Source: Salvelinus alpinus
Taxonomy: Eukaryota > Chordata > Actinopteri > Salmoniformes > Salmonidae
DNA: 64,000 bases
NCBI RefSeq assembly: GCF_045679555.1
Contig: NC_092089.1
Location: 6,321,179-6,385,178, forward strand
Direction of reading: 5' to 3'
Positions 1,723 to 63,693 of the stretch are shown one piece after another. The position numbers and the translations under genes are program-made. Below the pieces are notes generated by a model. That model was given only the letters and a program-made list of their open reading frames with translations. It was not told the DNA's origin and did no database searches. The first letter of the stretch is position 1. The number at the start of each line of letters is the position of its first letter.

Positions 1723-1947
1723 TCAGATGATAACTGTCTCCGTGTGATAGGCTGAGTAGGAGAATGAGGTGTGTTTGTGGGCGGAGCCGGATGAGGGCTG
1801 GTTGATAGGGTTGGAGGAAGAGGAGGAGGTGGAGGAGGAAGAGGTGGAGCAACTAGCCCAGCGTGACGGTGGGCGGCGGTTGGCTGGACAGGCCGGACGA
1901 GAGAAATTCTTCTGGACTGATGAGGAGCTGGAAGACACTTTACACTC
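1723..1947 (-). CDS. kiaa0408: KIAA0408 last coding exon
   Basis: The exon follows a CT-rich tract and a TTCCCTCAG acceptor and starts in phase 0 with GAG TGT (Glu-Cys). It encodes 74 residues and a TGA stop. The block FSRPACPANRRPPSRWAS matches the conserved C-terminal motif of human KIAA0408 almost residue for residue and is followed by a Ser/Pro-rich tail. The upstream frame stays open through the adjacent GA/CT-rich repeat, but that extension is low-complexity intron and was excluded because a good acceptor sits at 1948-1949. The partner donor is probably the GC site at 15785-15786. Confidence 0.85.
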   Translation of the reverse strand, partial: ECKVSSSSSSVQKNFSRPACPANRRPPSRWASCSTSSSSTSSSSSNPINQPSSGSAHKHTSFSYSAYHTETVII

Positions 1948-1954
1948 CTGAGGG

Positions 1955-2375
1955 AAGAGACAGAGAGACAGAGACACAGAGAGAGAGAAAGAGAGGGGGA
2001 GAGACAGAGAGCGATAGAGAGGGAGAGAGAGCGAGAGAGAGGGGGAGAGACAGGGAGAGACAGGGAGAGAGAGAGAGGGAGAGAGAGCGGGGGAGAGGGG
2101 AGAGACAGAGAGAGAGAGAGCGAGAGAGAGGGGGAGAGGGGAGAGACAGAGAGAGAGAGAGCGAGAGAGAGGGGGAGAGGGGAGAGAGAGAGAGAGACAG
2201 AGCGAGAGAGAGACAGAAGGGGAGAGACAAAAAGAGAGAGGGGGAGAGAGACAGAGAAAGAGAGAGAGACAGAGCGGGGGAGAGAGGGGGGGGGGGGAGA
2301 GAGACAGAAGGGGAGAGACAAAAAGAGAGAGAAGGGGGAGAGAGAACGAGAGAGGGGGAGAGTGAGAGAGAGAAT
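1955..2375. repeat. GA-rich (minus strand CT-rich) microsatellite
   Basis: Irregular GAGAGA/GGGAGA/GACAGA repeat directly upstream of the last KIAA0408 exon, where it serves as an unusually long polypyrimidine tract on the minus strand. Long Ser/Leu or Arg/Glu reading frames across it are artefacts of composition. From 2376 to about 2650 there is unremarkable intron. Confidence 0.9.
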
Positions 2376-2654
2376 TAACAAACATTCCAATTCCTCACTC
2401 CAATCAGTCATAAGAACATTATTCCTCACAGGAACAGCAGGCTACATTTCTCCAGGTCATCTGCAGCCCATCGACTCCATTTCCCTTCAGAATAACATTT
2501 GAGTTGGAATACTTTCCATATGATCTCCTACCTTCGTCCTCTGTAGCCCTCTTGAGCACCTACTCTACTTCTTGGCTAGTGTCAGTCTGTTGGATAGAGA
2601 CGGCATACTGAGAAAGTGATACTTCAAAAATAAATAAGCATTATGTAACCTTTA

Positions 2655-3532
2655 TTTAACTAGGGCAAGTCAGTTAAGAACAAATTCTTATTTATAATGA
2701 CGGCCTACACCGGTCGAACCCGGACCGACGCTGGGGCCAATTGTGCGCCGCCCTACGTGACTCCCAATCACGGCCGGGTTGTGATACAGCCTGGATTTCG
2801 AACCAGGATCTGTAGTGACACCTCTAGCACTGAGATGCAGTGCCTTAGACCGCTGAACCAGGGTCTGTAGTGACACCTCTAGCACTGAGATGCAGTGCCT
2901 TAGACCGCTGAACCAGGGTCTGTAGTGACACCTCTAGCACTGAGATGCAGTGCCTTAGACCGCTGAACCAGGGTCTGTAGTGACACCTCTAGCACTGAGA
3001 TGCAGTGCCTTAGACCGCTGAACCAGGGTCTGTAGTGACTCCTCTAGCACCGAGATGCAGTGTCTTAGACCGCTGAACCAGGGTCTGTAGTGACACCTCT
3101 AGCACTGAGATGCAGTGCCTTAGACCGCTGAACCAGGGTCTGTAGTGACACCTCTAGCACTGAGATGCAGTGCCTTAGACCGCTGAACCAGGGTCTGTAG
3201 TGACTCCTCTAGCACTGAGATGCAGTGTCTTAGACCGCTGAACCAGGGTCTGTAGTGACACCTCTAGCACTGAGATGCAGTGCCTTAGACCGCTGAACCA
3301 GGGTCTGTAGTGACACCTCTAGCACTGAGATGCAGTGCCTTAGACCGCTGAACCAGGGTCTGTAGTGACACCTCTAGCACTGAGATGCAGTGCCTTAGAC
3401 CGCTGAACCAGGGTCTGTAGTGACACCTCTAGCACTCAGATGCAGTGCCTTAGACCGCTGAACCAGGGTCTGTAGTGACACCTCTAGCACTGAGATGCAG
3501 TGCCGTAGACCGCTGCGCCACTCCGGGAGCCC
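2655..3532 (-). mobile_element. tRNA-derived salmonid SINE with amplified head
   Basis: Read on the minus strand, the head GGAGTGGCGCAGCGGTCTA resembles a Pol III A box region, and CTGGTTCGAAATCC resembles a B box. The body ends in the salmonid SINE tail (plus strand TTAACTAGGGCAAGTCAGTTAAGAACAA near 2655-2685). Between head and body about 13 copies of a 55-bp head segment have accumulated. The family name (SlmI/SmaI-like) is inference. Confidence 0.75.
2808..3520. repeat. 55-bp minisatellite made of a SINE head, about 13 copies
   Basis: The unit spans CAGGGTCTGTAGTGACACC and CTGAGATGCAGTGCCTTAG. It is the SINE head from the A box region to just before the B box. Copies are almost identical, with a few T/A and G/T variants. 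Confidence 0.95.
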
Positions 3533-3814
3533 AGCATTTAATGTGTCTTTTGAAAGACATTTTCCCAGATGTTCGCAGGGAGATCACATACATGGTCAAC
3601 ACTGCGCATGTCGATTCAAGTGTAAATGACCTTCAAAAGTCTGTTATAGTGCACCGCACTATAGTGCACCTTGTATCGAATCCCGGCCTAAGATAGTTAA
3701 CCTTTAAGTGCAGGGGGCTAAATCAGGGTGACAGAGTGTTTCTGGGTCGTCTAAAAACAAATCTACTTTGAAACAAAAGTATCCACCTCACACACACGGT
3801 TATGGATTTAACAA

Positions 3815-4206
3815 AAGTGTAACGATCGTTGCGGGCTGAAGGAGAGGAGGACCAAGGTGCAGCGTGGTAAGTGGTCATATTTTTAAATAAAATTCAAAAA
3901 CACTTGACAAACAAACAACAAAAACGACACACGAACAGTCCTGAAAGGTGAAACTAAACAGGAAACAGGAAACAACCACCCACAAACAAGAGTGGGAAAA
4001 ACAAGCTACCTAAATATGGTTCCCAATCAGAGACAACGATAGACAGCTGCCTCTGATTGGGAACCACACCAGGCCAAACAACATAGAAACAGAAAACCTA
4101 GACCTACAACATAGAATACCCAGACATAGAATAAACCACCCACATCACAGCCCTGACCAAACTAAAAATAGAAACATACAAAGCAATCTACGGTCAGGAC
4201 GTGACA
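3815..4206. mobile_element. Dispersed non-autonomous repeat with internal palindrome
   Basis: The segment from GTAACGATCG to CTACGGTCAGGACGTGACAG resembles a repeat I recognise as common in salmonid DNA. It contains a short inverted pair, GGTTCCCAATCAGAG (4018-4032) and CTCTGATTGGGAACC (4051-4065). No coding capacity is seen. Class is uncertain. Confidence 0.55.
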
Positions 4207-4254
4207 GAAAGAAGACGCCTGTACCGTGTCCGTTTGCATCCCAATATTACACTT

Positions 4255-62133: not shown

Positions 62134-62202
62134 CTCTATTGGAGTCTGTGGAATCCTCTTCTCTTTCTGAACATCCCTGCCTCCTCTCCTCTTCAGCGAC
62201 AG
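62134..62202 (-). CDS. mtcl3: mtcl3 small exon ([10 protein letters not shown])
   Basis: 69 nt, 23 codons in phase 0, CTCTGCAG acceptor, GAG|GTACGG donor. Encodes [20 protein letters not shown] then PIE. A basic linker corresponding to the SSLKRRGSKDL stretch that I recall before [10 protein letters not shown] in human SOGA3. Too short to show as a long open frame. Confidence 0.85.
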
Positions 62203-62237
62203 CTGCAGAGAATAAAGATGACATCATCAGCCCAGTC

Positions 62238-62605
62238 TGTATTATAATAGACCTGGCCTGTATTATATTAATACCTGGCCTGTAGACATGACCAGTTTTA
62301 TAATAGACCTGGCCTGTATTATATTAATACCTGGCCTGTAGACCTGGCCTGTAGACATGACCAGTTTTATAATAGACCTGGCCTGTATTATATTAATACC
62401 TGGCCTGTAGACCTGGCCTGTAGACATGACCAGTTTTATAATAGACCTGGCCTGTATTATATTAATACCTGGCCTGTAGACCTGGCCTGTAGACATGACC
62501 AGTTTTATAATAGACCTGGCCTGTATTATATTAATACCTGGCCTGTAGACCTGGCCTGTAGACATGACCAGTTTTATAATAGACCTGGCCTGTATTATAA
62601 TAGAC
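62238..62605. repeat. 69-bp repeat, about 5 copies
   Basis: Unit with AATAGACCTGGCCTGTATTA, TACCTGGCCTGTAGAC and ATGACCAGTTTTAT. Spacing is 69 bases (62301, 62370). Confidence 0.95.
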
Positions 62606-62767
62606 CTGTTAACTGTTGTACATGACTGGTGGAATCTGTTGTGGACAGTTAAATGTTCTTTACAGACAGACTGTCAATCATTAAAACATGACTCTTAGAA
62701 CCTCTTAACTAACAAGCTTGTGACGAGTAACCAGACCCTTGTGTTAAAACTCCCTGAGCTAACGTCT

Positions 62768-62860
62768 CGGCTTTAGCTCGGCAGGCTAACACAGTGTTGT
62801 GGCACGCAGGAGACCTGGGTTTGAATCCAGCCGGTCACATGACACTGCAGAACCTTGCCC
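62768..62860 (+). other. tRNA-like remnant, possible SINE head
   Basis: GCTCGGCAGGCTAACACAG and GGGTTTGAATCCAGC resemble weak A and B boxes of a tRNA-derived repeat. No intact cloverleaf was traced, so it is not called as a tRNA gene. From 62606 to 62767 nothing else is seen. Confidence 0.35.
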
Positions 62861-62884
62861 TCCCTGACAGCAGGTGTCCTCATC

Positions 62885-63534
62885 ACCTCCTTCTCCAGCT
62901 GGTTTTGCAGGGCCTGCTCGGTCACCTCCATCTAACCCTAACCCACCACCCTAACCCTCCCTGTCCCTCCCCCCATCACCTCTTTGGCCTTCTCCAGTTG
63001 GTTTTGCAGGGCCTGCTTGGTCACCTCCACCTAACCCTAACCCTCCCTGTCCCCCCCACCTTTCCCCTTTCCTCCCCCTCCTCACCTCCCTGGCCTTCTC
63101 CAGTTGGTTTTGCAGGGCCTGCTTGGTCACCTCCACCTAACCCTAACCCACCACCCTAACCCTCCCTGTCCCCCCCACCTCACCCCTTTCCTCCCCCTCC
63201 TCACCTCCTTGGCCTTCTCCAGTTGGTTTTGCAGGGCCTGCTTGGTCACCTCCACCTAACCCTAACCCTCCCTGTCCCCCCCACCTCACCCCTCCCTCCC
63301 CCTCCTCACCTCCTTGGCCTTCTCCAGTTGGTTTTGCAGGGCCTGCTTGGTCACCTCCACCTAACCCTAACCCACCACCCTAACCCTCCCTGTCCCCCCC
63401 ACCTCACCCCTTCCCTCCCCCTCATCACCTCCTTGGCCTTCTCCAGTTGGTTTTGCAGGGCCTGCTTGGTCACCTCCACCTAACCCTAACCCTCCCTGTC
63501 CCCCCCACCTCACCCCTTCCCTCCCCCTCCTCAC
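62885..63534 (-). repeat. 100-119-bp array of an mtcl3 exon end with its splice donor
   Basis: Six copies of the 3' end of the exon at 63535-63693 lie downstream in the intron, with GGTTTTGCAGGGCCTGCT starting at 62901, 63000, 63106, 63225, 63330 and 63449 (genuine exon: 63555). Five copies carry TTAG, then 51 nt encoding [17 protein letters not shown] or near variants, then a GTGAGG/GTGATG donor. The spacer holds CCCTAACCCTAACC (telomere-like) and C-rich runs. Confidence 0.92.
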
Positions 63535-63693
63535 CTCCTTGGCCTTCTCCAGTTGGTTTTGCAGGGCCTGCTTGGTCACCTCCACCTCTATCAGCTTTTG
63601 TCTTAGCTGCTCGTTCTCCTCCTCCGTCTTCGTCCTTTTCTCCTCCACGTTCTCCAACTCATGGTGCAGACGCACTGATACATCCTTCGCTAC
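63535..63693 (-). CDS. mtcl3: mtcl3 exon ([16 protein letters not shown])
   Basis: 159 nt, 53 codons in phase 0, CTAACTAG acceptor, GAG|GTGAGG donor. Encodes [40 protein letters not shown] and [13 protein letters not shown], a continuous coiled coil. The same succession occurs in human SOGA3. This is the most upstream mtcl3 exon in the window. Its last 51 nt plus donor have been copied six times into the following intron. Confidence 0.92.

Follow-up and report, generated by a model that had tools for sequence, protein, structure and literature searches.

Tandem mtcl3 and KIAA0408 genes of Salvelinus alpinus are probably two halves of one old MTCL paralogue

In Salvelinus alpinus the genes mtcl3 and KIAA0408 lie in tandem, with all their features on the minus strand of contig NC_092089.1. 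We studied them in a stretch of 64,000 nucleotides (the window), which covers the 3' part of mtcl3, while the 5' exons of this gene fall outside it. Our best explanation is that one old MTCL paralogue has broken into these tandem genes, mtcl3 being one half of it and KIAA0408 the other, and we give this reading a probability of about 0.68. As judged from the sequence, both the domain content of the two genes and the similarity of one KIAA0408 exon (49758-49925) to MTCL2 are beyond chance.

When the exons are joined by script after inspection of their borders, the eight exons of mtcl3 encode 508 residues and the seven exons of the KIAA0408 unit 1437 residues (Table 1). Each has its sole stop at the end, that of KIAA0408 at 1723. 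The introns are GT-AG throughout, except for the last KIAA0408 intron, which has a GC donor (CAG/GCGAGT), and 11 of the 13 introns within the two units are in phase 0. Three exons, 62134-62202, 60623-60773 and 20243-20325, go beyond the initial annotation of this stretch and are required to keep the frame open. The first and the last of these were sought because human SOGA3 and KIAA0408 have a segment there, and in both small exons splice borders and phases fit.

The human sequences used in all comparisons, MTCL2, SOGA3 (MTCL3) and KIAA0408, were not taken from database records. In human MTCL2, Pfam finds PF11365 twice and then PF14818, the latter at 858-910 of the 970 residues used. The two fish genes hold complementary parts of this arrangement, in a tandem order that is the same as in MTCL2. 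PF11365 is found in mtcl3 in two stretches (E 3.3e-59, 198.4 bits; cut-off 31.1), and PF14818 (SOGA 1/2-like, coiled-coil) in the joined exons of KIAA0408 over positions 1-54 of 54 (E 3.9e-23, 81.5 bits; cut-off 26.6). The mtcl3 query was a join of 461 residues, without exon 62134-62202 and part of 60623-60773, and PF14818 was not found in it at E up to 1. Conversely, PF11365 was not found in KIAA0408, either in the joined first exons (E 0.01) or in six single exons (E 1; all but 20243-20325). Joining exon 20807-21310 lifts the PF14818 match from 75.0 to 81.5 bits and extends it from positions 1-46 to 1-54, and therefore supports the 26662/21310 splice junction.

Further, exon 49758-49925 resembles the C-terminal half of MTCL2. 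The match is gapless over 51 residues, lies directly before PF14818 and has a score of 83. We assessed the significance of alignments with shuffled sequences (300, 500 or 1000 shuffles) and z; here the null has a mean of 36.0 and a standard deviation of 5.1, so that z is 9.3, and none of 1000 shuffles is as good. The two sequences share a W and the motif ERAELK, which are not seen in the control comparisons. As controls the same exon was aligned with the N-terminal half of MTCL2 (z 1.6, 84/1000), mtcl3 exon 61713-62029 (z -0.1, 513/1000), an unrelated coiled coil encoded by a long interspersed nuclear element (LINE; z 0.5, 322/1000) and human KIAA0408, which is without that part (z -0.6, 753/1000). 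The size of coiled-coil noise can be seen from the LINE coiled coil against the C-terminal half of MTCL2, where z is 2.3 and 21 of 1000 shuffles are as good. By this test exon 49758-49925 is MTCL-derived. The match of exon 26662-26928 to the C-terminal half of MTCL2 adjoins it in the same order (score 133, null 40.4, z 16.1, 0/1000), and the first four KIAA0408 exons joined reach z 26.8 against MTCL2 (0/300). With tblastn, the C-terminal half of MTCL2 finds exon 49758-49925 in the whole window with E from 5.6e-5 to 6.2e-4, depending on the setting, and gives no other hit at E up to 1. On the mtcl3 side, exon 56591-56947 matches the corresponding place of MTCL2 weakly (z 4.1, 1/300). The roughly 230 residues between both MTCL2 matches were not found in the window by tblastn at E up to 10.

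The MTCL ancestry proposed in the initial annotation is thus borne out by PF14818 in KIAA0408 and by the likeness of exon 49758-49925 to MTCL2. That annotation had also described two extra coiled-coil exons at 50 kb and suggested aligning both to MTCL proteins. For 49758-49925 this holds, in its splice borders as well as in its MTCL2 match. For exon 50233-50613, which starts with TGA GAA ATG and is without such similarity, the description as an internal coiled-coil exon is not borne out. By eye a pattern in it (WE...R...FR.F) suggested the middle part of MTCL2, and this candidate was rejected by the shuffles: with BLOSUM62, 81 per 1000 were as good for the whole exon, 947 for residues 28-62 and 114 for the last 39 residues, and with BLOSUM45 69, 372 and 128, respectively.

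Other searches were negative. NCBIfam gave no families for four exons, and the better of two hits of a sequence search in PDB had E 0.44, which is coiled-coil noise. Exon 56591-56947 gave 8 pattern matches in viral contigs and region 26659-26928 gave 89 in genome contigs, none of them confirmed.

Over the aligned part, 385 of 491 residues of mtcl3 are identical to human SOGA3. KIAA0408 shares with the human protein the start of PF14818, an RSNYG site, the C-terminal SRPA.PANRR.PSRWAS and, in exon 20243-20325, a match of 23 residues (0/1000 shuffles as good); the last exon, 1723-1947, matches the human C-terminus (0/300). The fish protein, with 1437 residues and two more 5' exons, differs in length from the human model of 694 residues. 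The fish unit runs two exons and 44 codons upstream of the human start, in agreement with the earlier view that the human model is short. The idea that the RSNYG site corresponds to a YG site of MTCL2 was rejected (z 0.5, 146/500). Compared with MTCL2, the remainder of human KIAA0408 gives z -1.0 (262/300) and the first 560 residues of the large fish exon z 2.8 (8/300).

Table 1. Exons and other features of mtcl3 and KIAA0408 in the window. A slash marks a splice border.
Feature	Positions	Strand	Basis
first mtcl3 coding exon that is complete in the window, coiled coil	63535..63693	-	CTAG/...GAG/GTGAGG; open, phase 0
mtcl3 coding exon, 23 residues	62134..62202	-	GCAG/...GAG/GTACGG
mtcl3 coding exon with PF11365 (SOGA)	61713..62029	-	PF11365 E 6.3e-32 (61712-62029)
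mtcl3 coding exon	60623..60773	-	CCAG/GGA...AAG/GTGGCT; phase 2 in, phase 0 out
mtcl3 coding exon	58261..58422	-	splice borders, open frame
mtcl3 coding exon	57063..57263	-	splice borders, open frame
mtcl3 last exon before the tail	56591..56947	-	CAG acceptor; phase-0 end at TCT/GTAAGT
mtcl3 terminal exon, hydrophobic tail of 36 residues and stop	53783..53893	-	follows TAG; phase 0, KD19 2.48
CpG-rich stretch, putative KIAA0408 promoter region	50201..51800	.	CpG o/e in 400-bp bins
KIAA0408 first coding exon, own ATG	50233..50613	-	TGA GAA ATG; without MTCL2 similarity
KIAA0408 coiled-coil exon, like the C-terminal half of MTCL2	49758..49925	-	CAG...GTAAGA; phase 0 at both borders
KIAA0408 exon, most of PF14818 and place of human start codon	26662..26928	-	PF14818 E 4.2e-21 (26659-26928)
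KIAA0408 coding exon, first codons complete PF14818	20807..21310	-	bit-score gain on joining
KIAA0408 coding exon ALKEIARVSEELCSYQDEIGRKSGGDKR	20243..20325	-	CTAG/...GAG/GTAAGA; restores frame between neighbours
KIAA0408 large coding exon, in-frame minisatellites, GC donor	15787..18472	-	open for 2686 nt; CAG/GCGAGT
KIAA0408 last coding exon and stop	1723..1947	-	TCAG/GAG...TGA

The left side of the proposed break is marked by the hydrophobic tail of mtcl3. Its hydrophobicity (KD19) is 2.48, compared with 0.58 in the rest of mtcl3. All 36 residues of the tail are identical to the C-terminus of human SOGA3. When the bases of the tail exon are shuffled, 10900 of 20000 shuffles are open and only 47 are both open and equally hydrophobic. 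The initial annotation took the membrane exon to be a terminal one, and this is supported; the exon is open in phase 0 and ends in a stop. For 35 tail residues, AlphaFold2 run on the single sequence predicts helices at 2-16 and 19-34; the best mean pLDDT is 90.9 (71.5-90.9 in five models) and pTM 0.43, though for peptides that are short and hydrophobic such single-sequence models are weak evidence. On this model the tail may be an anchor with a kink or fold as a short hairpin. In print, SOGA3 is entered as 'Membrane' in a table of ADAM10 cleavage products (PMC10229884), and another paper reports that its level in the soluble fraction of brain seems to be lower following a metalloprotease inhibitor (PMC11219901).

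At 56582-56590, after PLS, the fish sequence reads GTAAGTTGA. Human SOGA3 has VSQ here before the tail, whereas the fish exon has VS and a stop. The GTAAGT donor is therefore needed to reach the tail; otherwise the protein would end after VS.

The right side of the break is found at the start of KIAA0408. In exon 50233-50613 an in-frame TGA lies two codons ahead of the ATG at 50613, from which the exon is open for 127 codons. Most of it is of low complexity by eye, and only the last 35-40 residues are charged and helix-like. The only AG at the exon start, TTGAG/AAATG, spans the TGA, and from the phase-0 donor at 56591 it gives a different frame, with a stop. Between a point 600 bases ahead of the exon and its end, a scan finds 15 stop-free in-frame AGs, all of them within the exon, the one at 50406 being the best by eye. 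In-frame entry at the exon start from 56591 is thus ruled out by the frame scan, so in-frame joining must skip this exon or use an internal acceptor.

The exon occupies one edge of a CpG-rich stretch, which extends about 1.2 kb upstream of it. In 400-bp bins from 50201 to 52200 the observed/expected ratio of CpG (CpG o/e) is 0.93, 1.06, 0.82, 0.87 and 0.67, with GC of 0.54, 0.54, 0.47, 0.42 and 0.39, while CpG o/e in the flanks is 0.23 (49801-50200) and 0.18 (the next bin above 52200). As evidence for a promoter this signal is suggestive and not proof. Of the 18 AATAAA motifs on the minus strand in the window, four (52247, 51691, 51349 and 50882) are located after the tail and before the start of KIAA0408. 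In a motif scan AATAAA is absent between 56590 and 53894, where there is one ATTAAA (56506). With its own ATG behind a stop, the CpG-rich stretch and the AATAAA motifs, we read the locus as two transcription units, a reading taken from the DNA letters.

If mtcl3 and KIAA0408 are indeed halves of one paralogue, the break would have occurred within the stretch of about 230 residues that separates both halves in MTCL2. To the left, the lost stretch would have been replaced by the hydrophobic tail exon, making the N-terminal half a membrane-attached coiled-coil protein, with either a short hydrophobic hairpin or a single C-terminal anchor. To the right, KIAA0408 would have acquired a new promoter and a new first exon (50233-50613), and its product would be a coiled coil followed by a long C-terminus that is probably disordered. 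As phase 0 is found on either side of the break, a read-through from 56591 to 49925 would yield a protein of MTCL1 size without the tail.

A number of observations weigh against the break of one paralogue into two genes. First, the splice sites next to the break are not strong. In a crude score, the acceptor of the tail exon at 53893 is at the 68th percentile and the donor of exon 50233-50613 (CAA/GTAGAC) at the 78th percentile of all GTs. Second, the signals at the break are not unique to it: hydrophobicity also peaks in the repeats of KIAA0408, where the maximum of that unit is found (KD19 1.87), and high CpG bins occur at 57001-57800 (an mtcl3 exon and a minisatellite), at 25601-26000, at 21001-21400 (a KIAA0408 exon) and in a minisatellite at 22.4-24.3 kb. 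The CpG-rich stretch itself is not GC-rich above 51000. Third, the similarity to MTCL2 has gaps. The last 39 residues of exon 50233-50613 do not resemble MTCL2 (274 of 1000 shuffles as good), exon 26662-26928 was missed by tblastn of the C-terminal half of MTCL2 in four settings with E up to 1, and beyond PF14818 KIAA0408 has no clear similarity to the MTCL2 C-terminus, which in MTCL2 is the microtubule-binding region. Finally, that the human letters were not taken from database records also has to be counted on this side.

The alternative favoured by the initial annotation is that the locus is still one gene, in which the membrane exon is an alternative last exon and a long form, spliced from 56591 to the KIAA0408 exons, is a main product. 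When the mtcl3 exons are joined from 56591 to 49925 onward, skipping the tail and exon 50233-50613, the frame is indeed open for 1782 residues, and such a joined product is possible. Human SOGA3 and KIAA0408 are presumably adjacent and have a read-through transcript, as stated in that annotation. It was further noted there that the phase-0 end of exon 56591-56947 is matched by the reading frames of the tail and of KIAA0408, which the borders CAG and GTAAGT confirm, as does 49925 with its phase-0 border. However, this agreement carries little weight and is not beyond chance, because most introns of the two units are in phase 0. The own ATG of KIAA0408 behind an in-frame stop, the lack of an in-frame entry from 56591 at the start of its first exon, the CpG-rich stretch at 50.2-51.8 kb and the failure to find the middle part of MTCL2 in the window all speak against a single gene, and we therefore regard this alternative as unlikely.

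Slightly less probable still is that KIAA0408 arose separately, by partial duplication of an MTCL 3' half, and landed beside an mtcl3 gene that had lost its own 3' half. This would give the same domain content, and the lack of resemblance between the C-terminus of KIAA0408 and MTCL2 would fit it. However, two events would be required, which moreover would have to agree by chance in place, order and strand, and the tandem order equals that in MTCL2. That the two genes are ordinary neighbours with only a generic coiled-coil composition in common is very improbable, for although coiled coils do yield false similarity, as the LINE coiled coil shows, this is contradicted by the PF14818 score, far above its cut-off, and by the gapless match of exon 49758-49925 with its shared W and ERAELK, absent from the controls.

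Two more speculative ideas concern how the locus is used. It could act as a switch, where the same cell makes either a tailed N-terminal half and a free C-terminal half or, when the tail and the first KIAA0408 exon are skipped, a joined protein of MTCL type that is tailless and exceeds 1782 residues; we consider this doubtful. Under such a switch the halves would be expected to meet again via their coiled coils and to form a membrane-held, two-part microtubule crosslinker, which we hold to be just as doubtful.

The locus is rich in repeats, and minisatellites are frequent in the introns of both genes. Within the large KIAA0408 exon minisatellites are found at 15977-16349, 16565-16884 and 18173-18333, with units of 84/60, 15 and 30. 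Since these are multiples of three, the length of the KIAA0408 protein may differ among individuals. An array of 7.6 kb with units of about 25 bp (42080-49732) takes up a large share of the intron that separates exon 49758-49925 from exon 26662-26928. The last KIAA0408 intron contains a LINE-type element (5529-10853, minus strand), in which an open reading frame of 1048 residues, similar to endonuclease/reverse transcriptase, and one of 396 residues with a coiled coil are seen by eye. In mtcl3, a tandem array of 106-bp units (62889-63587, about 6 copies) is derived from the 3' end of exon 63535-63693, including the donor. Therefore, several partial copies of this exon with a donor-like site adjoin it.

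Among the known relatives, MTCL1 is described as having microtubule-binding domains at both ends and forming a parallel dimer via central coiled coils (PMC5546597). For MTCL2, association with Golgi membranes via the N-terminal coiled coil and microtubule binding via the C-terminus are reported (PMC9782006). The fish locus resembles MTCL1 and MTCL2 (SOGA2 and SOGA1) in having PF11365 coiled coils and then PF14818, as seen in MTCL2. In contrast to these proteins, the parts are in two genes, no intervening part was found in the window, the left half ends in a hydrophobic tail and the right half is without a match to the MTCL2 C-terminus. Regarding gene order, Leg1 is flanked by Themis and SOGA3 in cartilaginous fish, lobe-finned fish and tetrapods, while the region is rearranged in ray-finned fish; KIAA0408 is not named in the accessible portion of that paper (PMC7060313).

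In the open literature searched, as far as its texts were accessible, the name MTCL3 is scarcely used, and the papers that name SOGA3 together with KIAA0408 seem, judging by titles and the openings of abstracts, to be reviews or to deal with expression or omics. Little has been written on KIAA0408 itself, which is rarely in a title or abstract. It was not found there alongside MTCL1, SOGA1, MTCL2 or SOGA2, and neither the name SOGA3-KIAA0408 nor a fission reading of MTCL3 and KIAA0408 was found. PF14818 was likely built with KIAA0408-type proteins in view, and the kinship between MTCL and KIAA0408 may be implicit in databases.

Should KIAA0408 be the C-terminal half that was split off from MTCL3, its function would be directly testable, as binding to microtubules and binding to MTCL3. 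It would also raise the question of whether the human read-through is a relic. If true, the fission of this vertebrate gene would date back far enough for a fish and humans to share it, and the break would carry a conserved membrane tail.

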